Positions 7,039 through 33,454 of a DNA stretch of 64,000 nt are shown one piece after another; positions within the stretch are counted from its first letter, which is position 1, and each line of letters starts with the position of its first letter. The notes beneath the pieces are model-generated. The model saw only the letters and a program-made list of their open reading frames with translations. It was not told the DNA's origin and ran no database searches. A program made the position numbers and the translations under genes. The stretch is from Bacteroidales bacterium (GTDB lineage: Bacteria; Bacteroidota; Bacteroidia; Bacteroidales; UBA3824): the NCBI GenBank assembly GCA_016286055.1, contig JAEERW010000012.1:1-64000 (forward strand), written 5' to 3'.

Positions 7039-7136
7039 AATTGCTTTCCGCAGAAAGCAAATTTTATTCAAAAATGCTTTTTGCAGAAAGCAAATTTTTA
7101 TTAATTTTGCTTTTTGTAAAAAGCATAAATTTTAGA
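7039..7136. repeat. 33-bp palindromic repeat array A, before an AAA ATPase
   Basis: Three tandem units of 32-33 bases. Each is an imperfect palindrome with TTGCTTT/AAAGCAA-type arms around a short loop and an A/T-rich flank. The array runs to within 5 bases of the ATPase start at 7141 and contains its probable promoter. The units are read in frame as an 11-residue peptide repeat on the plus strand, but no start or product supports translation. Confidence 0.85.
7080..7109 (+). promoter_or_regulatory. Probable promoter inside repeat array A
   Basis: TTTG (7080-7083), an 18-base spacer and TAATTTTG (7102-7109). Both boxes are made of repeat-unit sequence, so whatever binds the repeats would compete with RNA polymerase. 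The spacer is slightly short, so the call is moderate. Confidence 0.45.
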
Positions 7137-7140
7137 AGGT

Positions 7141-8340
7141 ATGGACGTATTATTTGACAGACAGGATATTATGCTAAGAACAACGTCGATGGATATTGTG
7201 CGTACGTTTACCAATAGCATAAATTGGTCGGCTCAGATGCTATGCATCAGAGGTGCAAGAGGTGTTGGAAAATCTACACTATTGAGACAGTATATAAAGC
7301 AAAACTTTGAAAATAAAAGTGATAAGGCATTATACTGTTCGTTAGATTGGGGATATTTTAGTCAGCACTCTATTTTGGAAGTGGCTGATAAGTTTTACAA
7401 AACTGGCGGAGAGTTGTTAGTATTAGACGAGGTACACAAATATGACAATTGGAGCCGCGAGATAAAAGAAATCTCCGAAACATATCCCACCTTAAAAGTG
7501 GTTATGAGTGGTTCGTCGCTATTGAAACTCCTTTCAGGAGATGCAGATTTATCGCGTAGATGCCGCAATTACAATATGCCAGGGCTGTCGTTTCGCGAAT
7601 ATCTGCATTTTTACAAGGGAATAACGCTAAGGTGGTACACATTGGAAGAAATTTTAACCAACTCTACGGCAATAGCAAGAGAGATAAACTCACAATGCCG
7701 TCCGTTGGAACATTTTCACAACTACCTTCAATACGGATATTACCCGTTCTATATATCAAATCCCATTGATTATTATCCACTTATAGAGCAAACCAAAAAT
7801 TATGTAATTGATGTGGAACTACCGCAGCAACGAAATGTAAATCCATCTAATTGCCGCAAAATCAAAGCACTAATTAACGTTTTGGCTCAAAATGTTCCTT
7901 TTGATGTGGATATTTCAAAACTTGCCCAATCAACATCGCTGCAACGCAACACCGTGCTCGAATATCTCAACTATCTCAACGACGCAAAACTTATAAATCT
8001 GTTGTTTAGCGACTTGGTTTCGGTAAAAAAAATGCAGAAGCCAGATAAAATTTTGCTCGAAAATCCAAATCTTCTCTATGCGCTCGCCACATCTCCTGTA
8101 AAAATAGGCACAGCACGCGAATGTTTTGCAGTTAACCAACTAAGTGTCAATCACACCGTTGAATACGGCAAACAAGAAGGAGATTTGAAAGTTGACGGCA
8201 AATACACTTTTGAGATTGGCGGCAACGGAAAGACATTCAAACAAATAGCAGGAATATCTGATTCTTACATTCTTGCAGATGATATTGAAAATCCACGCGG
8301 TAACAAAATTCCACTGTGGATGGTGGGATTTTTATACTAA
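7141..8340 (+). CDS. AAA ATPase, DUF4143 type
   Basis: A 399-aa P-loop ATPase with GARGVGKST (38-46) and Walker B LVLDEVH (93-99), an 'SGSS' sensor-like motif near 122-125, a winged-helix-like middle region and a C-terminal DUF4143-type region ending in FEIGGNGKT, which resembles a PD-(D/E)XK fold. Members are very common and variable in Bacteroidota; the function is unknown. It stands alone, preceded by its own palindromic repeat array and followed by a convergent gene. A second member with a different array is at 33519-34655. Confidence 0.8.
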   Translation: MDVLFDRQDIMLRTTSMDIVRTFTNSINWSAQMLCIRGARGVGKSTLLRQYIKQNFENKSDKALYCSLDWGYFSQHSILEVADKFYKTGGELLVLDEVHKYDNWSREIKEISETYPTLKVVMSGSSLLKLLSGDADLSRRCRNYNMPGLSFREYLHFYKGITLRWYTLEEILTNSTAIAREINSQCRPLEHFHNYLQYGYYPFYISNPIDYYPLIEQTKNYVIDVELPQQRNVNPSNCRKIKALINVLAQNVPFDVDISKLAQSTSLQRNTVLEYLNYLNDAKLINLLFSDLVSVKKMQKPDKILLENPNLLYALATSPVKIGTARECFAVNQLSVNHTVEYGKQEGDLKVDGKYTFEIGGNGKTFKQIAGISDSYILADDIENPRGNKIPLWMVGFLY

Positions 8341-8353
8341 CAAAAATTCTCCC

Positions 8354-9229
8354 CTACTTCACCACCTTATAAAACCCAGCAGGAACAGGTACTTCAAACT
8401 TCATAATCTTGCCGGTGGCAGGATGACGAAATGCGAGGGTGGCAGCGTGGAGGCAGACGCGACGGATTGGGTCGGTTTTGGCTCCATACTTAGCATCGCC
8501 AGCAACGGGACAGCCTATCTCGCTCATTTGCACGCGGATTTGGTTTTTGCGACCGGTGTCGAGGTTGAGTTTCACAAGCGAAAACTGGTCGTTGGAATTT
8601 AGCACCTCGTAGTTTGTAACGGCAAAGTCGCCGCCATTGTTGATCCACGAAGAGTGTATTTTAAGCATTTTATCCTCAGTAAGATACGATTTTATAGTGT
8701 CGCGTTTCTTGGGCGGAATGCCTTCTACCACAGCAAAATAACTGCGCTCTACCACCATATTGTTCCAATCGTTGCGGAGCATATCGCGGGCACGGAGACT
8801 TTTGGCAAACATCATTACGCCAGAGGTTTTGCGGTCTAAGCGGTGGACAACAAAAATATGAAGTCCCCTACCCTGTCGTCTTACGTGCTGATTTATAAAG
8901 TGATAGGCTGTATTTTCCTTATCTTTGTCGGTGCCCACAGATAGCAGACCTTCGCGCTTGTTTACCACAATAACATCGTTGTCTTCGTAGAGGATATTGA
9001 GGTATTTGTTTGAAAAACTACCCTTGGGGAGTTTCTGTTTGGGAAGGATACGCACCTCGTCGCCGGGTTTTAGAGCATAGTCAAAAGCCGTTGTACCAAT
9101 GCCCGAAACCACCACACGACCCGATTTGAGCATTTCGCGCACATCGGTACGACTGCGGTCGGCAAGTTTTTCAAACATAAAATCGAGCAATTTACCCTCT
9201 TTGTCGGATTTAAATACGATGTCTGCCAT
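8354..9229 (-). CDS. RluA-family RNA pseudouridine synthase
   Basis: Isomerises specific uridines in rRNA or tRNA to pseudouridine. At 291 aa it has an N-terminal S4-like RNA-binding region (about 10-70) and the RluA catalytic domain, with the signature HRLDRKTSG at 129-137 and catalytic Asp132. The later GRKNQIRVQM and GDAKYG motifs are present. It sits 6 bases downstream of the CobW-type gene on the same strand, so it is probably co-transcribed with it. The target site cannot be told from sequence. Confidence 0.92.
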   Translation of the reverse strand: MADIVFKSDKEGKLLDFMFEKLADRSRTDVREMLKSGRVVVSGIGTTAFDYALKPGDEVRILPKQKLPKGSFSNKYLNILYEDNDVIVVNKREGLLSVGTDKDKENTAYHFINQHVRRQGRGLHIFVVHRLDRKTSGVMMFAKSLRARDMLRNDWNNMVVERSYFAVVEGIPPKKRDTIKSYLTEDKMLKIHSSWINNGGDFAVTNYEVLNSNDQFSLVKLNLDTGRKNQIRVQMSEIGCPVAGDAKYGAKTDPIRRVCLHAATLAFRHPATGKIMKFEVPVPAGFYKVVK

Positions 9230-9235
9230 AATTAT

Positions 9236-10267
9236 TTAGTTTACTTTGAAACTTTCGAGATAATTTTGTATAGCCTTGCGGTCGAGTTTGCGACCAATAA
9301 ATACAAGTTTTGTAAAACGTTGCTCGCCGGGCTGCCAATCTTCGCCGTCTTCCACAAGGAAAAAGTTGCGAACACTTTGGAAAATCAACCGTTTGGGTTT
9401 GCCCGCTATGCTTAGTATTCCCTTGATACGGAACACGTTAGACGCATTATATTGCAAAACGCCTTGAATCCAATAAACAAATTTTTGTTCGTCGAGACTG
9501 CCTTCTATTGTAAATCCCTCGCTTACAATGCTGTGGCGGAATGCCTTTGCCTTGGCGGGATTTTGAGCAAACGATCCAAAATCGGCGTCCATTGCCTCAA
9601 ATTTTAAAGGTGTGGCGTTGCGAAAATCTACCACAAGTTTTTCAACATTGGCGGCGGAATATGCAAAAGTGTTGATAATGTCTACGTTAGATATGTCGGC
9701 GTGCGACACGCAATACAATTTTGCAGTGGGGTTAACGGTGCGGATAAGATTTTTAACGCGCTCGCCCTGTTCGGGAGTTACGTCCTCAATTTTGTTTAAA
9801 AGGATAATGTCGGCAACAGCAAGTTGACGGTGCACCTCGGGTTGTTCGGCGGCGCTGTCTTCGTAGGTCATAGCATCGGCAAGGCATATTACGCTGTCAA
9901 TTACAAACTTACGCTGCATTTCTTCGTAACCCACAAAGTTGTCGATAACGCCTGCGGGGTCGGCAATGCCGGTGGTTTCGATCAAAAGGTTTGAAAACGT
10001 GTATTTAGAAGTAAGCAAGTTGTTGAGCGTTTGGGCAAGACCCTCGCTAAGGTTGCAGCAGATACAGCCGTTAGAGAGTTCAATCATATTGTCGATATTG
10101 CCAACGATAAGTCCGCCGTCGATACCCACCTCGCCAAACTCGTTTTCAATTACCGCAAAACGCTTATCGCTATATTTGCGCACTATATTATTAAGGAGCG
10201 TGGTTTTGCCTGCGCCCAAAAATCCTGTAAGAATTGTTACTGGAATTTTACTTGAAGTATTGTCCAT
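9236..10267 (-). CDS. CobW/COG0523-family GTPase (metal chaperone)
   Basis: A 343-aa G3E GTPase. The P-loop GFLGAGKTT is at 15-23, the family's metal-binding motif CICC at 68-71, ETTGIADP near 98-105 and the base-specificity motif NKIE near 157-160. A CobW_C-like domain follows from about 245. COG0523 proteins insert or allocate metals, often zinc, to client enzymes; the client here is unknown. It is the first gene before the pseudouridine synthase. A -7 box TATCTTTG lies at 10319-10312 on the minus strand. Confidence 0.9.
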   Translation of the reverse strand: MDNTSSKIPVTILTGFLGAGKTTLLNNIVRKYSDKRFAVIENEFGEVGIDGGLIVGNIDNMIELSNGCICCNLSEGLAQTLNNLLTSKYTFSNLLIETTGIADPAGVIDNFVGYEEMQRKFVIDSVICLADAMTYEDSAAEQPEVHRQLAVADIILLNKIEDVTPEQGERVKNLIRTVNPTAKLYCVSHADISNVDIINTFAYSAANVEKLVVDFRNATPLKFEAMDADFGSFAQNPAKAKAFRHSIVSEGFTIEGSLDEQKFVYWIQGVLQYNASNVFRIKGILSIAGKPKRLIFQSVRNFFLVEDGEDWQPGEQRFTKLVFIGRKLDRKAIQNYLESFKVN

Positions 10268-10311
10268 TGTATTAAATATTTATTGCCGGAAACATCCCGG
10301 AAAAATCAGCG

Positions 10312-10319
10312 CAAAGATA
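10312..10319 (-). promoter_or_regulatory. -7 element for the CobW-type gene
   Basis: Minus-strand TATCTTTG followed by GC, 45 bases before the start codon. The -33 region is A/T-rich without a clear TTTG. It is divergent from the toxin-antitoxin promoter just to its right. Confidence 0.55.
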
Positions 10320-10328
10320 CAAAATGTT

Positions 10329-10359
10329 TTTGGTAATTTTGAAAAAATGAGTATATTTG
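10329..10359 (+). promoter_or_regulatory. Promoter of the VapBC-like module
   Basis: TTTG (about 10329-10332), a 19-base spacer and TATATTTG (10352-10359). Transcription would start near 10366, which rules out the upstream ATG at 10347 and selects the ATG at 10377 for the antitoxin. Confidence 0.65.
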
Positions 10360-10376
10360 ACAAAAATTTGAACGTG

Positions 10377-10613
10377 ATGAAAGAGACGAATTTAACAATC
10401 AACAGCATTATAATGATGCTGAGCGTTTTGAGCAACGAGGACAAAATCTGCGTAGCCGAGCAACTATTGCAACAGGCCAAGCCCAAAAAGCCCAAACATT
10501 CAGCCGATTACTATGCCGGGATGTGGAGCGATGAAAATTTTCCACCCATTGATGAAATGTTGGATGATTTAAAAAAGTCAAGACGTTTTAAACAAAAAGA
10601 ATGGGAACTATGA
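10377..10613 (+). CDS. Antitoxin of a VapBC-like module
   Basis: A 78-aa protein upstream of and overlapping a PIN-domain toxin. Its C-terminal half (YYAGMWSDENFP and IDEMLDDLKKSR) is rich in acidic and aromatic residues, as in antitoxin segments that wrap the toxin. A similar tail (GVWADYPEMDNIEDIIKNSR) occurs in the antitoxin at 31110-31382. The start was chosen from the promoter at 10329-10359. Its stop codon overlaps the toxin start in an ATGA, indicating translational coupling. The DNA-binding fold is not recognisable. Confidence 0.75.
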   Translation: MKETNLTINSIIMMLSVLSNEDKICVAEQLLQQAKPKKPKHSADYYAGMWSDENFPPIDEMLDDLKKSRRFKQKEWEL

Positions 10614-11026
10614 GTAAATATCTTTTAGATACTAATGTCTGTGTTTGCTTTTTGAGAAATAAATTTAAAGTTGACCAAAAAGTTAAAGCAATTGGTTTAG
10701 AAAACTGCGCCATAAGTGAAATAACTGTTGCAGAACTAAAATATGGCGAGGAATACGCTAAATTGAAAGATGGTGCAAAATTTAAAGACCAAAAATTAGA
10801 TGAATTATTTGAGGATATAACTATTTATCCCATAAAGGATGCCTTAGATTTATACGCAAAGGAAAAAGCCAGACTAAGAATAAACGGAACTCCACAAGAA
10901 GATGATTTTGATTTACTTATAGGCTGTACCGCCGTGGTTAACCAATTAGTAATGGTAACGGAAAATCACAAAGACTTCAAAAATATCCAAGGCATAGATA
11001 TTGAAAATTGGATAGTTAGGGAATAA
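10610..11026 (+). CDS. PIN-domain toxin, VapC type
   Basis: A 138-aa PIN-domain ribonuclease. Acidic active-site residues are visible in LLDTN (Asp7), TVAEL (Glu42) and the DDFD cluster (98-101); MVTEN (115-119) is the usual fourth block. VapC toxins cleave tRNA or rRNA and are held inactive by the antitoxin encoded immediately upstream. It is clearly related to the toxin at 31385-31783. The gene ends 3 bases before the convergent UbiB-like gene. Confidence 0.88.
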   Translation: MSKYLLDTNVCVCFLRNKFKVDQKVKAIGLENCAISEITVAELKYGEEYAKLKDGAKFKDQKLDELFEDITIYPIKDALDLYAKEKARLRINGTPQEDDFDLLIGCTAVVNQLVMVTENHKDFKNIQGIDIENWIVRE

Positions 11027-11029
11027 GGT

Positions 11030-12730
11030 CTACTCCCCATCTGGATTATTCCCTCTACTGCCAAATCTGTTTCTGATAGTGTAAAAAAGGAGCGAGAGAG
11101 AGAGAATCAAGGCTACGGCATATCCTACAAGGGCGGCAATTGGAAAACCAAACAGCGAATATGTGGTTTCCTGACCCATTACGGCAATGATTGACGAGCC
11201 AATGATGAGCGCGGCTATCATTACGGCATAAACCAACTTGTTGGCTGCGGTGTCGAACTTTTTAATTAAGAAACCAAGACCTGTAATACGATGATTTGCA
11301 ATCAATTCGCCCCGACGGAGTTTTTTAAGAATGAGCGAAAGTTCCAACGGAGATGTTTCCAACAAATCAGATGCCTGCGAAAGATTTTGATTGAGGCGCG
11401 ATTTGAGACGGTCGGGCGAAAGACGCTCCAAAAAGAGTTTTTTGCTAAATGGTTTTAAATATCCTGCAATGTTGAAACCACTGTAAATCGACACGGCAAC
11501 CCTTTCGGCGGCGGCAAGCGAGGTAAACGATGCCACCACTTCGCGCGGAAGCATTAGTTTGTGACGGTAGGCTATGCGCATTATGCCAAGCGAAAACTCC
11601 TGCATATAGGTGGAGGTTTCTTCCATATAATAAAGGTTGTCGGCAAGATACTGAATTTCGGTTCTAAAAGATTGATAATCATCAATTTCACCACCAACTG
11701 ATAGTTTGCGCAGACTCTCCGACAATATTCGCGAATTGCGAGCCACAAGAGCGGCGGCGGCATCGCACACAAGCATCCTTTGATCGGATGTGAGCATACC
11801 TGTGGAGGCATAGTCGGCAAACGAAACCTTGCCGTCGGGAAGTACTGAAACCACAGTAGAGCGTGGCGAGGTGTGGAAAACTCCCGTTTCTAAAAGTCCA
11901 GACACGAAGGTTTTCATAAACTTGTCGGCAGTATCGCGCGGCGACACTCCCCACGATGCAAACTCGGCAGAATTATTTACATTAATAGAATTGTAATAAT
12001 CTGTTACCAAGGTAGATACAGTGGTGTAAAGGCTATATACCTTGGGCACCACAAACGACCCCGCGCCGCTATACGCCTTGCGAAAACGTCCTATCATATT
12101 AGCCTCGTTGCGAAGGTCGAGTTCGGGGATAATGGTCTCCTCAAACAAATCTACCAACTGTTTAGGATTTGGTATTCCGTGGTTTACAAGAAAATTTTCG
12201 ATAAGCGAAACAATGTCGCGGATAAGAGTGATGTCGGTTTGCACAGAAGCCACAGCCTCAGGCACAAGTATCTTAACAGCAACATCTTCGCCCGAAATCA
12301 GTTTTGCGCGGAAAGTGCGTCCAAAGCCCTCGGCAAAAGACGGCGTGCTGTCGAAATATGTGAAAATGTTTTTGGTCTTCATTCCCGTGGCCTGTTCAAA
12401 CTGGGCAATAGCCTGCGCCTTGCCAAACGGCTCGGTAGACGACGAAATTTTGGCCAACTCGGTGATGAGCGGCTCGGGCAGAATATCAGGACGGCAGGCG
12501 AGATAGTCGGCAAACGCCACCATTGTGGGTCCCAACTCTTCCACCACCCGGCGAATGCGCTGCCAACGGTTAAGCGACGACGAATCTTTGTCGCTTACAC
12601 GGTGGTCTTTGGGCAAAAAACGTCGGAGCCCTGTTGTTTCAACAACGCCCTCAAAACCGTTTTGCAACAATATGTTCACAACCTTGCCAATGCGACCGAG
12701 GTTGCGCACCCGCCAAGCCCTAATTGCCAT
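11030..12730 (-). CDS. ABC1/UbiB-family protein, probably catalytically altered
   Basis: A 566-aa member of the ABC1/ADCK/UbiB atypical kinase family. The ATP lysine (VAVKI, Lys153) and the ELD..NEAN motif (203-211) are kept. Other family hallmarks are changed: the KxGQ motif after LGPT reads VAFAD (71-75); the HxDxHPGN loop reads HTSPRST (286-292); the DFG-like motif reads ADYA (305-308). Two transmembrane helices close the protein (about 500-555), as in UbiB. It follows two short coiled-coil genes with 2-6 base gaps. The family supports quinone or lipid metabolism; this copy may be a pseudokinase. Confidence 0.8.
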   Translation of the reverse strand: MAIRAWRVRNLGRIGKVVNILLQNGFEGVVETTGLRRFLPKDHRVSDKDSSSLNRWQRIRRVVEELGPTMVAFADYLACRPDILPEPLITELAKISSSTEPFGKAQAIAQFEQATGMKTKNIFTYFDSTPSFAEGFGRTFRAKLISGEDVAVKILVPEAVASVQTDITLIRDIVSLIENFLVNHGIPNPKQLVDLFEETIIPELDLRNEANMIGRFRKAYSGAGSFVVPKVYSLYTTVSTLVTDYYNSINVNNSAEFASWGVSPRDTADKFMKTFVSGLLETGVFHTSPRSTVVSVLPDGKVSFADYASTGMLTSDQRMLVCDAAAALVARNSRILSESLRKLSVGGEIDDYQSFRTEIQYLADNLYYMEETSTYMQEFSLGIMRIAYRHKLMLPREVVASFTSLAAAERVAVSIYSGFNIAGYLKPFSKKLFLERLSPDRLKSRLNQNLSQASDLLETSPLELSLILKKLRRGELIANHRITGLGFLIKKFDTAANKLVYAVMIAALIIGSSIIAVMGQETTYSLFGFPIAALVGYAVALILSLSLLFYTIRNRFGSRGNNPDGE

Positions 12731-12732
12731 AT

Positions 12733-20150: not shown

Positions 20151-20240
20151 ACAAAAATATGAGCCAATTTCACCCTGTTTTTTACACTTTTATGAGGATA
20201 AAAACAAGGGATTTTTACACTTTTATGAGGATAAATAATT
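20151..20240. repeat. 33-bp repeat array B, orphan
   Basis: Three units with ATGAG at 20159, 20192 and 20225, an exact 33-base period. Units two and three share TTTTACACTTTTATGAGGAT (20 bases) with a TTTTAT-GAGG-ATAAAA palindrome; the first unit is degenerate. Array B lies between the peroxidase terminator and the outer-membrane protein gene, with no ATPase nearby. Confidence 0.75.
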
Positions 20241-22803: not shown

Positions 22804-24366
22804 TTATACCACCGCCTCCACAATTTCTTTATTGCCAAATTTCAATGTCTTAACCCCCGAAACCTTGTTTTTATTGAAATTAAAACTTAACATATAGCCC
22901 TTGTTAACATGGTAATAATCAAGATATTCGGTAAGTTGTTTTTCGCCACGCTCGTTGTAGGCATCGCCGCGCCAAATTTTCATTTCAATAATGTATTGTT
23001 TGCCTAAATAATCTATAATCATATCGGTACGAGAGCGGTCGCGGGTTTCGGCCTCGATGTAATAATTTCCTGTGCCATTGATAATTGGCTTGATATAAAG
23101 CATAAAGAAACGGCGACCCTCTTCTTCCTTAAATTCAGTGTCCTTACCTCCGTAAATATCGTTGAAATGAAGAGAAAAACGTTCAAGAATTTTGTCCATT
23201 TTCAAAACTCCATCTTCCACAAACTGATTACGGTCGGTGTCGCCGTGAGTGTACATTTCGTTTTTATGCTCCTCCTCGTTGGTAAACAGGTTGTAAAGGC
23301 GGGTTTCCATTGTTCGGTTAAAAACGCGCACTTTGCCATTTACATTTTTGATAAAATTAAACATCGCAGCAAGGTTAATTACCTTGATATCAAGATTAAA
23401 CGAATACTCTTTGCCGTAGTACAAAATATCTTTTAATGTGGATTTGATTTCGGGAAAATCCTCCATTTTTTTTATCAAATCGTCAAACAGTGTATTTTTT
23501 TCGGTCAAGAGCAATTTTTCGGCTTTTAAAAAGCCTTCATAATTCCAACCAAGTTTTTTAGTATCAATCAATTGACACAATCTTGACACAAAAAACGGAT
23601 AACCAGACGAATAATCCCAAATCAACTGTGCCATTTCAGATGTATTCATGCCGGTTTTGTGGTCGGATTCGTATTCGTCAAGCATTTTTTCAATACCGTC
23701 TTTGGGCAACGACATATCCTCGTCAAACGGCACGGCAATGTTCCACGGCGAATTGTACTGATGGTCGCTATCAGGACGAACTTTGAGTTTAAGATTCTTA
23801 ATGTCGTAAACTCCGGCAAGTATAACCGACTGAAATGTAGGAATATCCATTCGGTTGAGATACTTATCGCGCAACAAACGGAGAAATTTTATAAACGATT
23901 CAAAATTGCTTGCGCTGTCCACCTCGTCGATTATCAGCACAATAGGCTTGTCGGAATGTTCGCAAATATCGGGGATAAACTCGTCTAAAACATTAAATTT
24001 TATAGTTTCTGTTGCTGCATTATGTTCAACTATCTTATTAATAGCGTTTTTAACATAATCGTTAAGGTTAGTTACACTTCTTAATTTAAGTCGCAAACTA
24101 TCCACAAAAAAATAAGCCAATGATTCTTCGGATGCGAATTCTGTTTCACCCATCCGTTCAAAACTTATCGAAAACACTACATAATCATTACACAATCGCT
24201 TAGCCAAATGGTAAAGCGTAGTTGTCTTGCCATATTGACGCCCACGGTTGATGGTGATATATTTACCTTTGACAACATATTCTTCTATGTCGTCAATTCT
24301 TTTGGTGAAGTTCACCATATAATGTAACTGTGGGTAACAAATCCCCGTTGTGTTAAATTCGCGCAT
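22804..24366 (-). CDS. AAA ATPase with C-terminal PD-(D/E)XK-like nuclease domain
   Basis: A 520-aa protein. GRQYGKTT (42-49) is the P-loop and VLIIDEVD (143-150) the Walker B. The C-terminal domain has SRTDMIIDYLGKQYIIEMKI, in which D..E-x-K matches a PD-(D/E)XK nuclease core. The promoter -7 box at 24398-24391 makes the ATG at 24366 the start, not the earlier one at 24393. It sits beside the Gabija-like genes at the left edge of the accessory region. Function is unknown. Confidence 0.75.
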   Translation of the reverse strand: MREFNTTGICYPQLHYMVNFTKRIDDIEEYVVKGKYITINRGRQYGKTTTLYHLAKRLCNDYVVFSISFERMGETEFASEESLAYFFVDSLRLKLRSVTNLNDYVKNAINKIVEHNAATETIKFNVLDEFIPDICEHSDKPIVLIIDEVDSASNFESFIKFLRLLRDKYLNRMDIPTFQSVILAGVYDIKNLKLKVRPDSDHQYNSPWNIAVPFDEDMSLPKDGIEKMLDEYESDHKTGMNTSEMAQLIWDYSSGYPFFVSRLCQLIDTKKLGWNYEGFLKAEKLLLTEKNTLFDDLIKKMEDFPEIKSTLKDILYYGKEYSFNLDIKVINLAAMFNFIKNVNGKVRVFNRTMETRLYNLFTNEEEHKNEMYTHGDTDRNQFVEDGVLKMDKILERFSLHFNDIYGGKDTEFKEEEGRRFFMLYIKPIINGTGNYYIEAETRDRSRTDMIIDYLGKQYIIEMKIWRGDAYNERGEKQLTEYLDYYHVNKGYMLSFNFNKNKVSGVKTLKFGNKEIVEAVV

Positions 24367-24390
24367 AATGATCAAATATAAAATTCCCGC

Positions 24391-24398
24391 CAAAGATA
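24391..24398 (-). promoter_or_regulatory. -7 element of the ATPase/nuclease gene
   Basis: Minus-strand TATCTTTG followed by GCG, 25 bases before the start at 24366. Confidence 0.6.
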
Positions 24399-26407: not shown

Positions 26408-28503
26408 AGTAACCCCTCCTTAATATATGTAGGAACTTGCCATGTATTTCCCTCTTTTTCAGCAAGAATCAAATTAATTGCTAATGCAGCCTTGCTTTCA
26501 ATTCCATTTGCTGCCAAATTATATGGGTTTTGGTCATTTTTGAAAGTTGACAAAGCGTCTGCGTTTAGTGCTGTTTCGTCGATATCGCTTTGTTTTATAA
26601 AATCAGCATTTAATTTGAAAAAATCATCTTCAAAACTGCGGGGTTGATAATCGCCTTCTTTCGTTTGAAAACAAACCATCATATTACCGTCTTCATCACA
26701 GGACATTTTATTATCAGCATCATTCCAACTAAAAAGTTTATCCTTTGGCAATAATCTCATATAAAATGCAACATCACAATTATTATTAAAATAATGCTTC
26801 AATGCAGCATTTGAGGTAACATAGAGATTCCCTTCTTCATATTGACATTTTTTGTGATGTCCTTCGGGCGAACAAATGTCAATATCAGTAATTACCAACA
26901 TTTTCGTTAGTCCAATAAAATGAAAAAATTTTTCAAAAATGTGAGAGTGTGCTCCGACTGGTAAAACAGAGATTTTTTGCGACAAAAGACCTAATTCTCC
27001 ATTAGATTCATCAGGTTTCTGTTCGTCATCAATTTTTTTCATCATCAATGGTAGTAAAATACGTTCAGTATCACCTTCTATAAATACTGCCTTATCGGCA
27101 AAAAATAACTCGCTATTCATCACTGTAAGATACTGTTTCAGAAATCTATAAGCATTATCGTCATCTTCATACATTTTTGCTAAATCTTGTAAATTTTTGG
27201 ATATCACACAATTACTAAAATCTGAGCGTTTTAAATACTTAATGGCTTTAAAATCATCACAATTGGCGACAATATGCGAAGAGTGTGTTGTTATGATTGA
27301 TTGTAGCGTGGATTTAACTCCGTTTTTCCCGACTATTCCATCACCAAGCAATTTCTTTATATTTCTAATAAAGACATATTGCATTTGTGGGTGTGTATGA
27401 GCCTCCGGCTCTTCAATAATAAGTAAGTTAATATCGGCAGGTCTACGATTTGTTACACGCTTCATTCGTTCAACAATCAACTTAATCTCAAAAATCATAG
27501 AAATCAAGTTCATATAACCGAGTCCGTTATAATTTTCAGGCAAATCTCGCTGACTGTGTTCGTAAACAACCGTTGTGTTACCTTTTAAAAGTTCACGATG
27601 CCTAAGTGTTGAAACTACTTTAATCAAAGTTTCTTGTTTCCGCATACCACCTAGGTCGCCAATAGTCTTTATTATATTGTCAAAAATATTACTATATATT
27701 TTTGTTAGTTCTTGATCTGTTTCTTTTAATCTTGCAATAAATTGTTCTCGTGTATCTGCATTGGATTCGTCTTCACCTTGTACATCGTATAATTTTGATG
27801 TTTGCTCCGAAAGGGTATGGTCTGCGTCTTTATTATCGACACCACGCCGTGCACTAATATATTCAAAATTTATAACATCATCTAAATGGAAACCTTGAAG
27901 TCCATCCAACTTTATAAAACGGTTTTCATTAAGAACCATATCTTGTTTTTCAACATGTACAGATTTGCGCACAATCTGAAAATATTTGGAGTGATTTGCA
28001 TTCATAAACTCTCGTTTATCAAACTTTGTTTCAGAATTTTCATTTTGGTGCGTTGCTGTAAATTTGGATTTAACATGATTATAGTCTGTAATCAAACGTG
28101 AATAACAGTTATAATCAAGTTGGTAGTCAAACCCAATGGCAAAATAATTATTGCCATCTTCAAGATTAGTGAGTATCTTATTCCCAATATTATCAAGACT
28201 ATCAGAATCTGAGAATTCTGCAATCAAACGAAGTGAAATCCCTATTGATTGATAATCTTTTTCTTCCAGTTGTGGTTGCTCCAATATATCTTCAATTTCT
28301 TTTTGGAAATCTAGGTTAAAATCATTATATTGGAATTTTCTTGTCCGTTCTTTGCCGCTGTTAATAAACTTATCAAGAACGATTAGCAACGATGTCTTAC
28401 CCACATTATTCTTACCAACAATGAGGGACAAATCGGGTTGCAAGTCGATTACGAAGTCTTTTAACAGACGAAAATTTTTGACACGTATTTGCTTTATTAC
28501 CAT
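26392..28503 (-). CDS. gajA: GajA-like OLD-family ATPase/TOPRIM nuclease (Gabija)
   Basis: A 703-aa class 2 OLD protein. The ABC-type ATPase has GKNNVGKTS (30-38), a signature-like NGLGYMN (326-332) and Walker B LLIIEEPEAHTHP (360-372). The TOPRIM nuclease has FIEGDTE (474-480) and TDID (539-542), the acidic metal-binding residues. In Gabija, GajA cuts DNA when nucleotide levels fall during phage infection. It is the first gene of the pair and is driven by the promoter at 28524-28554. Family assignment is firm; the Gabija label rests on gene order. Confidence 0.82.
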   Translation of the reverse strand: MVIKQIRVKNFRLLKDFVIDLQPDLSLIVGKNNVGKTSLLIVLDKFINSGKERTRKFQYNDFNLDFQKEIEDILEQPQLEEKDYQSIGISLRLIAEFSDSDSLDNIGNKILTNLEDGNNYFAIGFDYQLDYNCYSRLITDYNHVKSKFTATHQNENSETKFDKREFMNANHSKYFQIVRKSVHVEKQDMVLNENRFIKLDGLQGFHLDDVINFEYISARRGVDNKDADHTLSEQTSKLYDVQGEDESNADTREQFIARLKETDQELTKIYSNIFDNIIKTIGDLGGMRKQETLIKVVSTLRHRELLKGNTTVVYEHSQRDLPENYNGLGYMNLISMIFEIKLIVERMKRVTNRRPADINLLIIEEPEAHTHPQMQYVFIRNIKKLLGDGIVGKNGVKSTLQSIITTHSSHIVANCDDFKAIKYLKRSDFSNCVISKNLQDLAKMYEDDDNAYRFLKQYLTVMNSELFFADKAVFIEGDTERILLPLMMKKIDDEQKPDESNGELGLLSQKISVLPVGAHSHIFEKFFHFIGLTKMLVITDIDICSPEGHHKKCQYEEGNLYVTSNAALKHYFNNNCDVAFYMRLLPKDKLFSWNDADNKMSCDEDGNMMVCFQTKEGDYQPRSFEDDFFKLNADFIKQSDIDETALNADALSTFKNDQNPYNLAANGIESKAALAINLILAEKEGNTWQVPTYIKEGLLWLRS

Positions 28504-28523
28504 AAACTATAAGTTTTTTATTG

Positions 28524-28554
28524 CAAAGATAAGACATAATCAACAAAAATGCAA
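28524..28554 (-). promoter_or_regulatory. Promoter of the Gabija-like pair
   Basis: Minus-strand TTG (28554-28552), a 20-base spacer and TATCTTTG (28531-28524), 21 bases before the gajA-like start. Confidence 0.7.
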
Positions 28555-28604
28555 TAGCACAGGAAGTAAATGACCAAACCAATAATTATTTAGTGAAAAA
28601 TCTT

Positions 28605-28612
28605 TATCTTTG
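28605..28612 (+). promoter_or_regulatory. -7 element of the small NTPase gene
   Basis: TATCTTTG, 26 bases before the ATG at 28638. It is divergent from the Gabija promoter. Confidence 0.55.
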
Positions 28613-28637
28613 AATTCACAACTAAACATAATTAACC

Positions 28638-29150
28638 ATGCTCATTCTTATTACCGGCGCATCATACACAGGCAAAACGCTTTTGGCGCAGCGATTGCTC
28701 GAAAAATATAAATTTCCATACCTATCAATCGACCATCTAAAAATGGGTTTGATTCGTAGCGGCAACACCACGCTTACTCCCGAAGACGATGATGCCCTCA
28801 CCGCTTATCTTTGGCCTATCGTCAGCGAAATAATGAAAACCGCTATCGAAAACAACCAAAACCTTATTGTAGAAGGATGCTATGTGCCCTTTGATTGGCG
28901 GCGCGATTTTGATGCAAACTATTTACAATCAATACGTTTCATCTGTCTTGTAATGACCGATAATTATATACTCCATCATTTTGAAGACATCAAAACCCAT
29001 TGCTCCGACATCGAACATCGTCTCTACGGCGCAGATTGCACCATCGAAAGTCTCAAACGCGACAATCAAAAGTACCTAAACGGTTTTAAATCCGCCGGCG
29101 AAGATGTGGTAATGATTGACGATGAATATCCATTATCTGGAATTTTGTGA
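28638..29150 (+). CDS. Small P-loop NTPase/kinase-like protein
   Basis: A 170-aa protein beginning MLILITGASYTGKT, with the P-loop GASYTGKT at 7-14, and a fold resembling AAA_33/adenylate-kinase-like small kinases. LIVEGCYVP near 76-84 is probably the second strand. The substrate is unknown. Its last codons (Gly-Ile-Leu-stop, GGAATTTTGTGA) form the first copy of the repeat array at 29139-29216, so the reading frame ends inside a repeat unit. Confidence 0.65.
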   Translation: MLILITGASYTGKTLLAQRLLEKYKFPYLSIDHLKMGLIRSGNTTLTPEDDDALTAYLWPIVSEIMKTAIENNQNLIVEGCYVPFDWRRDFDANYLQSIRFICLVMTDNYILHHFEDIKTHCSDIEHRLYGADCTIESLKRDNQKYLNGFKSAGEDVVMIDDEYPLSGIL

Positions 29151-29216
29151 TTTTTCGGGGTAAAACAGGTGGAATTTTGTGATTTTTTAAGCAAAAATAG
29201 CCGGAATTTTGTGATT
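29139..29216. repeat. 32-bp repeat array C, at the 3' end of the NTPase gene
   Basis: GGAATTTTGTGATT occurs at 29139, 29171 and 29203, an exact 32-base period, with partly similar A/T-rich sequence between. The first copy supplies the stop codon of the NTPase gene. Palindromic character is weaker than in arrays A and D. Confidence 0.75.
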
Positions 29217-29334
29217 ACCTATTATCATACCTCTTAAAATCAATTACTTAATAAATAATCCCTATTTCCTCACCTTTTTGCTCAAAAAATATATGCTTTG
29301 GAGGATTGAATCGGGTGTGTAATAGAAAAAATAC

Positions 29335-29342
29335 TATATTTG
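29335..29342 (+). promoter_or_regulatory. -7 element of the carboxylesterase gene
   Basis: TATATTTG followed by CC, 29 bases before the ATG at 29371. No clear -33 box. Confidence 0.5.
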
Positions 29343-29370
29343 CCTTCAAAATAACAAACACATTAATGAT

Positions 29371-30861
29371 ATGAAAAAATTACTTTTTCTTGCTCTTGGC
29401 GCAATGATGATGGCATCGTGCGCTACGCAAACACAACAAAACACTTGCACCAACAACAACCCCGTGCTGACTATCGAAGGCGGTCAGGTTCAGGGCGTTA
29501 ACACTGAAAAAGAGGGCGTTATTGTTTATAAAGGAATTCCCTACGCCGCTCCTCCGATTGGCGAAAACCGTTGGCGTGCTCCTCAGCCAGTAGTGCCGTG
29601 GAAAGGCGTTAAGGTGTGCGACAGTTTTGGTCATCCTGCATTTCAAGGCGCACATTACAACGGCGGATACACCACCGAATGGGGCTACGGCGACGAAAAG
29701 GCTTACAGCGAAGATTGTCTCTACCTCAACGTTTACACCAAGGCGTCGGCTCAGCCCGAAAAGAAACTCCCCGTGGCTATTTGGATTTTTGGCGGCGGAC
29801 TGCGGGAAGGCTGGGGCTCTGAACCCGAATTCGACGGTCAAGAATGGGCTGCCAAAGACGTGGTTTTGGTAACGTTCAACTACCGCGTGGGTCCGTTCGG
29901 ATTTTTTGCGCATCCCGAAATTTCAGCCGAAGACCCCGCTCACGCCACTGGCAACTGGGGCACTCTCGACCAAATAGAGGTGATGAAATGGGTGAAGAAA
30001 AACATCGCACAGTTTGGCGGCGACCCCGAAAACGTTATGATTTTTGGTCAGAGCGCAGGCGGACGTAGCACCAAATTCCTCTCCTCATCGCCCCTCACCA
30101 AAGGTCTGTTTAACAAGGCTGTAATAATGAGCGCAAGCGGATTGCAGAAGCCATTACCCAAGGAAGAAGCCGACAAATTGCCCGCATTTTTCCGTCAGAG
30201 CCAACTTACCCTTGCCGAGGCTGAGGCTCAGATTAAAGAAGTTTGCGATTGGGCTAACTTAAAGACTCTCAAAGACCTACGAGCCGCTTCTACCGAAGAA
30301 ATCTACGCCCTCGGACCTATGTATACTCGTGTAACAGGCAAACGCAGTTGCTTAAACGCCGGTCCGATAGCACCTTACGTCGACGGATATGTTCTTCCAA
30401 AGGCTTTTGACGATGCCTGCATTGCCAACGAAATTGCCGACGTGCCTTATATGATTGGCTGCACGCTCAACGACCCCGGAAATATGGCTGACCAAATTGT
30501 GGATTTCTGTCTCAACCGTCAGGAAAACAACGGCAAGGCGTGGGCATATCAGTTTGCCCGTTCCCTACCCGACGACGGCAGCCATCCCGAGGACTACCTC
30601 AAAGGCGCGTTCCACTCGTCAGACCTCTGGTATGTGTTTAAATCGTTGAAACACTGTTGGCGTCCGTGGACTCAGGGCGATTGGGACTTGTCGGAACGTA
30701 TGCTCACCGCTTGGAGCAACTTTGCCAAATACTCCGACCCCAACGGCGCTAACGGCGGCGACTGGAAACCATACACATCTGAGAACAAACAGTTTATGCG
30801 TTTCAAATTAGACGAAAAAGATGCAGAGGCTTCCTCGCTCGGCGAACCTATGAAACCGTAA
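29371..30861 (+). CDS. Type B carboxylesterase-family lipoprotein
   Basis: A 496-aa alpha/beta-hydrolase with a lipoprotein signal (MMMASC, Cys17). Family motifs EDCLYLNVY (114-122) and the nucleophile elbow FGQSAGG (225-231, Ser228) are present, as is the histidine block GAFHSSDLW. The usual acid motif (GxxxDEG) reads LNDPG, so the catalytic acid is not where expected. It hydrolyses esters outside the cytoplasm; the substrate is unknown. It ends at a terminator that is part of a 90-bp direct repeat. Confidence 0.85.
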   Translation: MKKLLFLALGAMMMASCATQTQQNTCTNNNPVLTIEGGQVQGVNTEKEGVIVYKGIPYAAPPIGENRWRAPQPVVPWKGVKVCDSFGHPAFQGAHYNGGYTTEWGYGDEKAYSEDCLYLNVYTKASAQPEKKLPVAIWIFGGGLREGWGSEPEFDGQEWAAKDVVLVTFNYRVGPFGFFAHPEISAEDPAHATGNWGTLDQIEVMKWVKKNIAQFGGDPENVMIFGQSAGGRSTKFLSSSPLTKGLFNKAVIMSASGLQKPLPKEEADKLPAFFRQSQLTLAEAEAQIKEVCDWANLKTLKDLRAASTEEIYALGPMYTRVTGKRSCLNAGPIAPYVDGYVLPKAFDDACIANEIADVPYMIGCTLNDPGNMADQIVDFCLNRQENNGKAWAYQFARSLPDDGSHPEDYLKGAFHSSDLWYVFKSLKHCWRPWTQGDWDLSERMLTAWSNFAKYSDPNGANGGDWKPYTSENKQFMRFKLDEKDAEASSLGEPMKP

Positions 30862-30874
30862 CACACCATAATTA

Positions 30875-30964
30875 AATACAACAAAAAAGCCTTTCACTCT
30901 TGCTTGGTGAAGGGCTTTTTTGATTTACATAATCAACCTAATTCTGCCATCCTCTTTTACAAAA
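30875..30964. repeat. 90-bp direct repeat, left copy
   Basis: Bases 30875-30964 match 31787-31876 with only three differences. The repeat holds a terminator hairpin and the last 12 or so codons (minus strand) of the HARE-like gene at 31837. The two copies enclose an 822-bp segment with a toxin-antitoxin module. Confidence 0.92.
30883..30921 (+). terminator. Terminator after the carboxylesterase gene
   Basis: AAAAGCCTTTCAC pairs with GTGAAGGGCTTTTTT. The hairpin is symmetric and can stop transcription from either side. Confidence 0.85.
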
Positions 30965-30965
30965 A

Positions 30966-31050
30966 CAACTAATGATTCAAGCGTTGATAAACAGATAGAT
31001 GCATTGGTTTTAACAGCGGAGAAAATAAAGGTGGTGAAAGTGAAAAAATA
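30966..31050 (+). pseudogene. Possible 3' remnant of a DNA methylase-like gene
   Basis: An open plus-strand frame ends VDKQIDALVLTAEKIKVVKVKK followed by TAA (piece shown in two parts: VDKQIDALV, LTAEKIKVVKVKK). It resembles the 'IDxLVYxLYGLTxEEIxIVE' tail common in N6-adenine methylases of restriction systems, with five residues missing. Only about 27 codons are left, so the match is weak. Confidence 0.25.
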
Positions 31051-31052
31051 AA

Positions 31053-31084
31053 TTTGGCAAATAAAAATTTTAATTGTATTTTTG
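31053..31084 (+). promoter_or_regulatory. Promoter of the second PIN toxin module
   Basis: TTTG (31053-31056), a 20-base spacer and TATTTTTG (31077-31084). Transcription would start near 31091, which selects the ATG at 31110 and not the upstream start at 31086. Confidence 0.7.
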
Positions 31085-31109
31085 AGTGTTGAATCAAACT
31101 CATAGAATT

Positions 31110-31382
31110 ATGTATACAAACACATACAAGGCAGATTACAACACAGCCGAAAACTATTTCAAGTTTTTGAACCCGTTGAGCGACAGTATCAAACTTTGTT
31201 TGCTGAAAATGCTAACGGATTCGTTGGTTGTTGCCCCTACACAAACCGAAGAAAAGAAAAAAACTTCATTGTCGAAACTTTTCGGTGTATGGGCAGACTA
31301 TCCCGAAATGGATAACATCGAAGATATCATCAAAAACAGCCGCACAAACGGACATCTACGTCAAACTGCATCCTTTGATTGA
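31110..31382 (+). CDS. Antitoxin of the second PIN toxin module
   Basis: A 90-aa protein two bases upstream of a PIN toxin. The segment GVWADYPEMDNIEDIIKNSR parallels GMWSDENFPPIDEMLDDLKKSR (read as two pieces) in the antitoxin at 10377-10613, and LSDSIKLCLLKML parallels LSNEDKICVAEQLL. The N-terminus probably gives dimerisation or DNA binding, and the tail blocks the toxin. The start is chosen from the promoter. Confidence 0.72.
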   Translation: MYTNTYKADYNTAENYFKFLNPLSDSIKLCLLKMLTDSLVVAPTQTEEKKKTSLSKLFGVWADYPEMDNIEDIIKNSRTNGHLRQTASFD

Positions 31383-31384
31383 CT

Positions 31385-31783
31385 ATGAAAAAATATCTTT
31401 TGGACACCAACATCTGTATTTTCTATCTGAAAGGGATGTACGAATTGAATAAGAAAATAGAAAAAGTCGGACAAAAAAATTGTTTCATTTCCGAAATAAC
31501 AGTGGCTGAGTTGTTGTATGGTGCATACCATAGCAAAAGTAAAAAGCACATTTCAGAAGCACGTCAATTTATTGAGGAGTTTACGGTCATACCCTTTGCA
31601 GGACTTGCTGATGATTTTGCCAAACAAAAGGATATGCTCACAGACAAGGGGCAGATGATTGACGATTTCGATATAATGATTGGTGTGTCTGCTCTCAAAC
31701 ACGGCTGTATAATGGTAACTGAAAACATCAAGCATTTTTCAAGAATAGATAGCCTTGATATTGAGAATTGGATCAATAGATAA
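31385..31783 (+). CDS. PIN-domain toxin, VapC type
   Basis: A 132-aa PIN ribonuclease. Acidic sites are in LLDTN (Asp7), TVAEL and DDFDIMIG; MVTEN follows. It shares LLDTN-C-I, ISEITVAEL, DDFD-IG and DIENWI with the toxin at 10610-11026, so the two are paralogues. An alternative start (TTG at 31379) adds two residues; the ATG at 31385 was preferred. The module lies between the 90-bp direct repeats. Confidence 0.88.
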   Translation: MKKYLLDTNICIFYLKGMYELNKKIEKVGQKNCFISEITVAELLYGAYHSKSKKHISEARQFIEEFTVIPFAGLADDFAKQKDMLTDKGQMIDDFDIMIGVSALKHGCIMVTENIKHFSRIDSLDIENWINR

Positions 31784-31786
31784 AAT

Positions 31787-31876
31787 AATACAACAAAAAA
31801 GCCTTTCACTCTTGCTGGGTGAAGGGCTTTTTTGTTTTACATAATCAACCTAATTCTGCCATCCTCCTTTACAAAA
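31787..31876. repeat. 90-bp direct repeat, right copy
   Basis: Matches 30875-30964 with three substitutions. Here the repeat continues into the intact HARE-like gene, so this copy is the original junction and the left one its partial copy, or the reverse of an insertion. Confidence 0.92.
31794..31833. terminator. Bidirectional terminator between the PIN toxin and HARE-like genes
   Basis: The same hairpin as at 30883-30921. It lies 10 bases after the toxin stop and just before the end of the minus-strand gene at 31837. Confidence 0.85.
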
Positions 31877-32043
31877 GTTTCGCGGTGGCGCATAATAACG
31901 GCATAAACCTGCTGAATAGTAACAGGTTTGCCATCTTTACGCTTATGCAGACCGCGGGCATTAATCATATCAGTGATTTGCTCCACCCTCAGCCCGTGCC
32001 CACCTGAGGCTATAAGATAAACGATTGCTTCTACAAGGGACAT
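31837..32043 (-). CDS. Stand-alone HARE-HTH-like winged-helix protein
   Basis: A 68-aa protein. Its pattern (SLVEAIVYLIASGGHGLRV, EQITDMINARGL, GKPVTIQQVYAVIMRH, FVKEDGRIRLIM) matches the HARE-HTH winged helix found fused to nucleases, RNA polymerase delta and chromatin proteins. Here it stands alone. It probably binds nucleic acid. A near-perfect promoter lies upstream at 32078-32109. Assignment is by eye. Confidence 0.55.
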   Translation of the reverse strand: MSLVEAIVYLIASGGHGLRVEQITDMINARGLHKRKDGKPVTIQQVYAVIMRHRETFVKEDGRIRLIM

Positions 32044-32077
32044 TTTATTATTTACTTTAACAATTCTATTCTGCTAA

Positions 32078-32109
32078 CAAAAATAAAAATAGATTACCAA
32101 ATGTGCAAA
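32078..32109 (-). promoter_or_regulatory. Promoter of the HARE-like gene
   Basis: Minus-strand TTTG (32109-32106), a 20-base spacer and TATTTTTG (32085-32078), 35 bases before the start codon. Confidence 0.7.
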
Positions 32110-32394
32110 AAAAGATGGATTTGGTAAAAAATTGATGAGATTTAAATATTGACCCTTTTTTAAAAGTCAAGTGTTTTATTATTTTTTTGAAGTGGTGAGG
32201 GTTTATATATATTTAAGGTGTGGTTGTTTTTCTCGCTTTCAGCCTACGGACATTACTACGATAAATATCGGTACTAATGCTTTAAACTTGATGTTTGTTG
32301 ATATTTTCAAAAATAGTATATTTTTACCTTCGGTTTGATACAATCCTTTTCTTAATTTCCTATCATTATGCAATTTACAATCCCACAAAAAAAA
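32110..32394. other. Non-coding stretch
   Basis: About 285 A/T-rich bases between the HARE-like promoter and the flavoprotein terminator. A TTGAC/GTCAA inverted pair lies near 32149-32170 and a promoter-like TTTG-N19-TATATTTT near 32297-32328 on the plus strand, but no gene follows. Nothing else is recognisable. Confidence 0.5.
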
Positions 32395-32434
32395 CTCCGA
32401 ACCTAACGCCTATTTTTATTCGTTAAGTTCGGAG
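32395..32434 (-). terminator. Terminator after the Tat flavoprotein gene
   Basis: A 14-bp stem with one mismatch (CTCCGAACTTAACG with CGTTAGGTTCGGAG on the minus strand) followed by eight T at 32393-32386. Confidence 0.85.
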
Positions 32435-32471
32435 GTTAGTGTATTATGATGTAAAAATTTAAGGTCTACCC

Positions 32472-33254
32472 CTACCTCACAAAATTCATCATCTGCCACT
32501 TTTCCCTTTCGGGGAATTTGGCGGTGCCGGTGGCAAATTGTTTGAGCATATATGCCATATTGTCGGCGAGGGTGCGCATTGTTTGGAGACCTTCGGTATC
32601 TTGCGACACTTCACCTTCGGCGGCGCCATAACCAATGTTCCAATATTGCGATGTAACTATCGGCATATTAAGCATTTGAAACGGCATCTGCAAGGCTTGG
32701 AACGCTGCGGTGGCTCCTCCCCTACGGCATACGGCTACGGCTGCGGCTGGTTTGCCCTGCATATTGGCTCCTCCGGCGTAACACATACGCTGAACCACTG
32801 AGAGAACCTGTCCGGCGGGCTGTCCGTAATATACCGGCGAACCCACTACCACGGCGTCGCACTCGCTCATTTTGGCAATAATCTCGTTGCAAACGTCGTC
32901 GTCGAAAACACATTTGCCGAGACCCTTGGCGTGACACTGTCCGCAAGCCACACAGCCACGTACAGGACGGTTGCCCACGCCCACAATCTCGCTTTCGATA
33001 GAGTGCTTTTTCAGTTGTGCGGCTATCTCGCTCAGAAGGGTGAAGGTGTTGCCGTTGCGCCGTGCACTGCCGTTGATTAACAGCACTTTAAGGTTGTTGA
33101 TATTAACGCCTGCCGCCTCGGCGCACGATGCAAGAGCGCTTGTGCCCACCGATGCTACTGCGGCTGTGGCTGCCACTGCGCCAATACGTTTGATGGCGTC
33201 GCGGCGTGATATGTTTTCGTCGTTGTTTGCTTGAATGTTGTTTTGATTGTCCAT
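32472..33254 (-). CDS. Tat-exported NADPH-dependent FMN reductase/iron-sulfur flavoprotein
   Basis: A 260-aa protein with a twin-arginine signal (SRRDAIKRIG, Arg17-Arg18, then a hydrophobic A-rich stretch to about 48). The flavodoxin-like fold begins KVLLINGSARRNGNT. Four cysteines in CVACGQC and GKC (101, 104, 107, 115) resemble the iron-sulfur flavoprotein cluster site. Export of a flavoprotein through Tat, which carries folded cofactor-loaded proteins, is consistent. The electron partner is unknown. Confidence 0.85.
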   Translation of the reverse strand: MDNQNNIQANNDENISRRDAIKRIGAVAATAAVASVGTSALASCAEAAGVNINNLKVLLINGSARRNGNTFTLLSEIAAQLKKHSIESEIVGVGNRPVRGCVACGQCHAKGLGKCVFDDDVCNEIIAKMSECDAVVVGSPVYYGQPAGQVLSVVQRMCYAGGANMQGKPAAAVAVCRRGGATAAFQALQMPFQMLNMPIVTSQYWNIGYGAAEGEVSQDTEGLQTMRTLADNMAYMLKQFATGTAKFPEREKWQMMNFVR

Positions 33255-33357
33255 TTTTTTATCACTTTTAAATTAAATATTCGGGGGCAAGGTAATAAAA
33301 AAAATCAAGTGTTGTATGTGATATTTTCTACTGATTATTTTATGAAACAAAAATCCT

Positions 33358-33454
33358 CTACTTGGGATTTTCCTTTAAAATCCAAAGTAGTACTTGCGAT
33401 TTTCAATCAAAATCCAAAGTAGCACTTGCGATTTTCCTTTAAAATCACAAGTAG
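33358..33454. repeat. 32-bp palindromic repeat array D, before an AAA ATPase
   Basis: Three units (33358-33390, 33391-33422, 33423-33454), each an imperfect palindrome with CTACTT..GATTTT and AAAATC..AAGTAG arms around a 5-base loop. The array stops directly before the -33 region of the ATPase promoter. The sequence is unrelated to array A, but size and plan match. Confidence 0.88.

Follow-up and report, generated by a model that had tools for sequence, protein, structure and literature searches.

The window analysed here, 64,000 nucleotides in length (C28:1-64000), belongs to a Bacteroidales genome of 4.18 Mb in 36 contigs. It carries five short tandem-repeat arrays, two of which precede genes for ATPases of the DUF4143 type (Table 1). 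Arrays A to D lie where the initial annotation had placed them. Tandem Repeats Finder (TRF) reports A (7038-7134, period 33 bp, 2.9 copies), C (29137-29216, 32 bp, 2.5 copies) and D (33359-33454, 32 bp, 3.0 copies). Array B is not among the TRF reports for the window and is recognized by two exact 22-bp copies at 20181-20202 and 20214-20235, offset by 33 bp. The three units attributed to every array were found in A, C and D; the third unit of B is not intact in the window, and the sister genome G004 has three units at this locus. Palindromic units had been described at all four loci, which holds for A (11/13) and D (12/13) and fails for B (8/10) and C (no palindrome). The fifth array, E, was missing from the initial annotation; it has a 51-bp period and an inverted repeat of 13/13. 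No structured RNA was matched in the window by Rfam at the gathering threshold.

Both ATPase genes expected behind arrays A and D are present. ATPase A is only DUF4143-like, as it scores 23.9 bits against the Pfam family DUF4143 (PF13635), under the cut-off of 28.1, and its AAA_14 domain is above cut-off. In the alignment, its C-terminus is without the canonical E-x-D/E-x-K motif. The final unit of array A extends into a -7-like box, TAAATTTT, and the first unit of this array coincides with the start of homology between non-syntenic relatives. In G004, the stretch holding the TATTTTTG box of array B sits between the array and the ATPase start.

Table 1. Arrays, promoter boxes and ATPase genes in the 64,000-nucleotide window.
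Feature	Position	Strand	Description
Array A	7039..7136	+	Three 33-bp dyad-symmetric units directly 5' of ATPase A
ATPase A	7141..8340	+	399 aa; AAA_14, putative winged helix ~235-306 (model), DUF4143-like C-terminus
-7-like box TATTTTTG of the presumably lost gene of array B	20152..20159	-	Read by eye
Array B	20181..20235	-	Orphan; two intact units, 33 bp spacing
Array C	29139..29216	+	Orphan; three non-palindromic units at 32 bp
Array D	33358..33454	+	Three palindromic 32-bp units 5' of ATPase D
-7-like box TATATTTG of ATPase D	33481..33488	+	Read by eye
Segment without counterpart in G004	33509..34682	.	G004 retains array D and promoter
ATPase D	33519..34655	+	378 aa; AAA_14, putative winged helix ~180-249 (model), DUF4143 with E306-x-D308, E319-x-K321
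Array E	46248..46346	-	Orphan; two palindromic units, 51 bp spacing

The arrays are linked to the ATPase genes far beyond chance. The genome has 40 matches to PF13635, 34 of which exceed the curated cut-off, gene A being among the six under it; this list is incomplete, as a further A-type gene (C23:272016-273200) and a further relative in locus L043 exist. Seen by eye, nearly every listed ATPase gene has an array of its own near its promoter. A TRF array with a period of 28-40 bp lies at most 260 bp upstream of 25/40 ATPase genes, compared with 1/311 control genes, which were drawn from twenty stretches of 20 kb elsewhere in the set of contigs. A core-free test, asking for a best 20-mer self-match of at least 17/20 at a lag of 20-56 within 220 bp upstream, is positive for 36 of the 39 scorable ATPase genes (C36_223696, cut at a contig end, was left out) and for 6/311 controls. 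The supposition that each ATPase has its own repeat is thus borne out in the own genome. Among the three misses, C24_419302 has an inverted repeat of ~31 bp by eye, C24_492319 has a 33-bp TRF array, and the start codon of C14_11619 is probably annotated too early, with a 32-bp TRF array inside the extension. Two of the six positive controls lie beside an ATPase absent from the list (L043, 52-bp array); others are a dispersed-repeat-like sequence (L042), a short-period repeat (L046) and one weak A/T-rich match. Chance or low complexity as the source of the arrays is ruled out by these two comparisons with the controls.

Two loci of the control set deserve a separate description. At L043 (7274-8725), an ATPase skipped by the PF13635 search and 48% identical to C32_4051 was revealed by its 52-bp array. 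At L047 (~9256-9307), two palindromic copies stand 32 bp apart before a gene of 1188 aa, which by eye is not of the DUF4143-type ATPase family; this is the sixth of the positive controls.

The units are private to each gene. When the unit 20-mer of each gene is compared with the upstreams of the other genes, only 5/1260 ordered pairs reach 17/20 or more, two of them reflecting one shared intergenic region. Most lags in the own genome are 32-33 bp; the sister genes C23_197947 and C35_284129 have 23 bp, and C32_4051, C24_26026 and C36_28510 have 51-53 bp. These distances approximate three, two and five DNA turns, respectively. In the largest clade, called clade R here (query C26_162342), unit pairs are at least 16/23 alike in 90/104 loci, and 85 of these 90 have a spacing of 33 bp; the core-based detector used for this clade is also positive on 10/311 controls. 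The variable half of the clade R unit is 92% identical between two units of one array versus 40% between loci. Unit sequences stay alike while spacers diverge, and array length differs between orthologues.

Spacing was also considered as a strict marker of subfamilies. It fits the own genome and fails across phyla, because in Rhizobium and Sulfitobacter 23-bp arrays go with proteins nearest to C24_419302, a gene with a single palindrome.

Some loci show other arrangements. Upstream of the ATPases at L120 and L121, two unit types occur within one array, as if the specificity were changing over. L026, upstream of C30_23862, holds a 20/20 copy of the unit of the paralogue C27_138965, possibly another orphan or a target in trans. 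Gene C24_78061 is flanked by arrays in one orientation: in addition to the array in front, its unit occurs three times directly 3' of the stop codon (L029 2499-2605, corresponding to C24:77798-77904). At L021 (C23:1-7500), two ATPase genes are placed head to head, with two different arrays in the single intergenic region.

The position of the arrays relative to the promoters is equally regular in clade R. In Bacteroidota, the -7 promoter element has the form TAnnTTTG, and such boxes are present in many promoters here. The core of the clade R unit resembles TTTTGnG. A TAnnTTTG box lies at most 75 bp from the start in 76/92 clade R loci, and in 62 of these 76 it is found 19-21 bp (modulo 33) from the core G. 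The gene-proximal unit therefore overlies the expected -33 element, so that the site overlaps the gene's own promoter at these 62 loci, as it does by eye for A and D. Among nine upstreams labelled as Clostridia, their kin or Treponema, the unit is located between a -35-like box, TTGAC(A/G), and a -10-like box in five (L203, L214, L216, L221 and L222). This promoter arrangement looks like that of an operator.

Unit bases vary together with particular residues of the adjacent ATPase. For 92 clade R loci (effective number 66), the 22 positions of the unit were compared with the 470 columns of the protein alignment by mutual information with average-product correction. Removed beforehand were eight loci of a 44%-identical sister clade, the partial loci L148, L149 and L192, the own-gene loci L113 and L127 (duplicates) and L137 (partial), and loci with a pair identity under 15/23 or proteins of at most 400 aa. 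The top pair is residue 372 with unit position 9 (z 14.5), followed by residue 373 (z 9.1). Residue 374 pairs with position 11, residue 375 with 10 and residue 376 with 7 (z 5.0-6.4), and residues 253-281, which according to the alignment form the putative winged helix, pair mainly with positions 13-19 and also with 9 and 11 (z 4-6.4). At position 9, K372 goes with G (27/30), T372 with A (25/34) and D372 with C (8/8); T375 is accompanied by T at position 10 in 6/6 loci. Residues 370-376 directly precede the E379-x-D381 motif. The association between residues and bases is strong; its independence from ancestry is suggestive only.

The structure models of A and D (mean pLDDT 91.0 and 91.3) show a P-loop domain, then helices and strands, then a mixed sheet. 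The helix-strand region is read by us as a winged helix. The mixed sheet of D bears the invariant residues E306, D308, E319 and K321. For A, the first PDB match found by Foldseek is the Cdc6/Orc1 heterodimer on origin DNA (E 1.1e-7, TM-score 0.31), and the second is an archaeal Walker-type ATPase. A phmmer search of A and D against the PDB sequences gave no Orc1/Cdc6 match and no convincing solved relatives. Pfam assigns AAA_14 and DUF4143 to both proteins, with the reservation on A noted above. In clade R, the nuclease-type residues are nearly invariant (D381 and K396 92/92, E379 91/92, E394 89/92). The PD-(D/E)XK-type motif occurs in 22/40 proteins of the own genome (23 regular-expression matches, one of them, in A, being false) and was not found in the A-type. 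Because clade R keeps the nuclease-type residues and the A-type is without the canonical motif, DNA reading may be general and cleavage confined to some subfamilies.

All eight proteins scanned with the PADLOC models match PDC-S01 or PDC-S27. Examples are 7.2e-55 for D and 6.5e-28 for A, both against PDC-S01, 1.5e-94 for clade R, and 2.2e-194 for C32_4051 against PDC-S27. PDC-S01 and PDC-S27 are presented in the available text of PMC12988326 as ATPases fused to members of the PD-(D/E)XK superfamily; PDC-S01 is ranked there as the fourth commonest defence system across prokaryotes, with most such candidates awaiting validation. In a rumen survey, PDC-S01 is given as the most frequent individual locus (PMC13356809, available text).

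Array and gene behave as a portable module. An all-against-all comparison gave 41 pairs that are 75-93% identical in DNA and have sufficient flank (13 more were short of it). Of these pairs, 29 share array and gene only, seven share the flanks too, four end inside the gene and one stops short; several pairs reuse loci, so the 41 are not independent. In the 29 module-only pairs, the homology begins at a median of 121 bp before the start codon, stops a median of 4 bp short of the stop codon's end and, between these non-syntenic relatives, includes no other gene. In 12 of the 17 pairs whose array was scored, the 5' edge of homology is at most 10 bp from the edge of the array. No clear terminal repeats or target-site duplications were seen at the few junctions read by eye.

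The orphan arrays B and C had been interpreted as sites left behind after loss of an ATPase gene, and the comparison with related genomes agrees with this. At the B locus, G004 has an extra 1,314 bp at the exact place, with an ATPase 55% identical to C9_38425 directly to the left of the array and pointing leftward. G017 is colinear with the window at this locus and the ATPase gene is absent there as well. The B unit occurs in six genomes, with an ATPase within the compared locus in two (G004 and G010), and the C unit in eight, with an ATPase beside it in three (G010, G011 and G002). Array E was found in five genomes: a full PF01637/DUF4143-type ATPase stands beside it in G012 and a partial one in G007, none is present in G000 and G017, and G002 stops at the contig edge. 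At the array D locus, G004 has array and promoter without the segment listed in Table 1, and a few bases are shared at the junction. At the C27_60291 locus, G004 retains one unit and the rest of the module is absent. The direction of change at the orphan arrays would probably be loss in the case of B, which is favoured because the third unit of B is degenerate. An empty-site comparison was also tried for A; G004 has array and gene at the same place with a different left flank, and therefore has no bearing on gain or loss of A.

Each array would accordingly serve as a private autoregulatory operator, read by the ATPase encoded behind it. We give this reading a probability of about 70%; the odds rest on the own genome and on clade R. 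Autoregulation is inferred by us from the promoter geometry. As proposed for clade R, the loop adjacent to the PD-(D/E)XK motif would read one part of a unit of ~20 bp and the putative winged helix another, and the unit spacing of about three DNA turns (two or five in a few subfamilies) would align several protomers on one face of the DNA. Direct binding of the ATPase would repress its own gene until a trigger, perhaps foreign DNA, releases it, and the proteins may also cleave DNA and act in defence. Repression is likelier than activation because the unit covers the promoter. Array and gene would be inherited and moved as one module, and loss of the coding part would leave an orphan array. A hint of release may be seen in Thermus, where a DUF4143 gene is up 6.6-fold when a plasmid and Argonaute are both present, as stated in the available text of PMC4406477.

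A bolder extension of the operator reading is offered tentatively, and we regard it as considerably less likely than not. The modules would be portable, mutually orthogonal protein-address pairs, in which the loop on the nuclease side and the winged helix read a private code (K372-G/T372-A at position 9, T375-T at position 10). Occupancy of the address would silence a DNA-guarding ATPase-nuclease, which incoming foreign DNA or competing address copies would then titrate away. If this were true, a single genome would have ~40 independent sensors, and selection for non-overlap would drive the addresses apart.

The association extends to relatives. Clade R passes in 28/29 loci in the search of relatives and in 57/77 in named genomes. 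The named genomes are mostly of gut and rumen Bacteroidales; Segatella copri, Prevotella conceptionensis, Ruminococcus flavefaciens and Eubacterium ruminantium are among them. With the core-free test at 17/20, 14/21 D-type loci and 12/28 A-type loci (at least 120 bp upstream) are positive. Ten plasmid homologues were hand-picked from two listings, and the test is positive for 6/10, namely those of Bacteroides uniformis, Segatella hominis, Agathobacter rectalis, Segatella copri DSM 18205, Rhizobium and Sulfitobacter. The homologue of Vescimonas fails with a score of 16, and those of Thermus, Acinetobacter and B. thetaiotaomicron with 14. The association is thus wide in clade R and strong in the genus, where most homologues carry arrays, and it is not universal.

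Several results weigh against the operator reading. Arrays of the A-type are found in 11/14 loci in the genus and in 1/14 in other families, and those of the D-type in 13/17 and 1/4, so that outside the genus most homologues of these two types lack arrays and have single palindromes or nothing. The Thermus DUF4143 gene mentioned above has one palindrome and no array. In the covariation analysis, residues 136, 188, 177, 419, 359 and 21, outside the loop and the winged helix, reach z 5-7. In a tree-aware test, based on a tree built without the loop, G at position 9 gives ~7 independent pairs, with a mean of 4.9 agreeing, 0 opposing and 2.1 showing no difference (median p 0.0625); the versions for A and C are weaker (4.1/0.1 and 1.1/0.1 agreeing/opposing). 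The pairing of ATPase and unit suggested in the initial annotation is upheld by covariation in the 92 clade R loci, and the tree-aware test is not significant alone. A held-out set of 31 loci keeps several units that look mis-anchored (L263, L275, L295 and L296) and some loci that look copied from a single virus (L281-L284, L285-L286). The residue rule is correct for 21 of the 31 and copying from the nearest relative for 20, the rule winning 3 to 2 where they differ. Among the 25 with a nearest relative below 90%, the rule wins 3 to 0 where the two differ.

These observations have to be set against other explanations. The fold match of A to Cdc6/Orc1 on origin DNA, the closest in the PDB, raises the idea that the ATPases are Orc1/Cdc6-like initiators with private origins, the module being or descending from the origin of a mobile replicon. 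The mobility of the array-gene module would fit, and so would haloarchaeal Orc/Cdc6 genes, which have family-specific adjacent repeats, a few of them on both sides (PMC3528665, available text), as C24_78061 does. We consider this unlikely, given the low TM-score of that match, the ~40 copies in one chromosome and arrays in register with promoters. The array could alternatively be the cleavage or recombination target of the ATPase-nuclease, either as the left end of a mobile element or as a site to exclude or move rival copies. The near invariance of the nuclease-type residues in clade R, the modules shared by relatives without flanks, and the presence/absence patterns with arrays left behind all agree with such a role. 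It is nevertheless quite improbable, as the few junctions read lack clear terminal repeats or target duplications, the motif is restricted to 22/40 own proteins and missing from the A-type, and several absences drop the coding sequence and keep the array, as plain deletion would.

The embedding of the arrays in promoters is also what would be expected if a separate regulator read them and the ATPases were merely regulated genes. Because the tree-aware test is not significant alone, co-inheritance could account for part of the covariation, which leaves room for such a regulator. Some 36 unrelated units could not, however, all be recognized by one factor; adjacent loop residues and adjacent unit positions carry the two strongest covariation signals, and the non-syntenic homology carries no other gene, which makes this explanation very improbable. 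Hardly credible is a neutral origin, in which tandem promoter duplications persist by copy-number change and have no reader. Variable array length among orthologues is compatible with it; the strong enrichment at one ATPase family, the divergence of spacers around units that stay alike, and the 33-bp spacing of 85/90 clade R arrays are not.

The operator reading has partial precedents. Autoregulated toxin-antitoxin operons have many paralogues, each repressing its own promoter via its own operator, and are frequently gained and lost. The ATPase loci resemble them in their many paralogues, putative own operators and gain or loss, and differ in having one gene instead of two, an AAA-type ATPase, and tandem, helically spaced units. 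The nearest precedent for private gene-adjacent repeats would be haloarchaeal Orc/Cdc6 with its origin recognition boxes (ORBs), a likeness at the level of protein and repeat that is not meant as membership. In the available text of PMC3528665, archaeal Orc1/Cdc6 proteins are AAA-type ATPases with a winged helix and many paralogues, whose family-specific repeats are mainly upstream, and the fold match points the same way. In contrast, the arrays described here are tandem, helically spaced and placed in the gene's own promoter, many of the proteins have a PD-(D/E)XK-type domain, and the TM-score is weak. With PDC-S01 and PDC-S27, the family shares the PADLOC models and, in those proteins that have the motif, a probable fusion of the ATPase to a PD-(D/E)XK-superfamily domain as given in PMC12988326; a private operator array is unmentioned in the available portions of PMC12988326 and PMC13356809, and antiviral activity of the family is not shown in these portions.

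No description of these arrays was found in the literature searched, a scope from which most subscription papers and preprints fell out. If the operator reading is right, the likely DNA ligand of each PDC-S01-type protein can be read from the genome, and candidate specificity residues can be named. Private operators would allow binding, repression and release to be assayed together, and nature would have supplied in this family a collection of DNA-reading domains that appear to be orthogonal. An array by itself can point to a family member missing from the list, as happened once (L043).

Other features of the window stand apart from the five arrays. Between arrays C and D (31086-31783), a PIN-domain open reading frame (ORF) follows a small ORF, perhaps as a toxin-antitoxin pair. 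The ORF at 22804-24393 is AAA-type but belongs to a different family; it matches PD-(D/E)XK weakly and has no TRF array before it. A longer repeat cluster with a 42/84-bp period (63727-64000) continues past the window end and stands behind two small ORFs that by eye are toxin-antitoxin-like.

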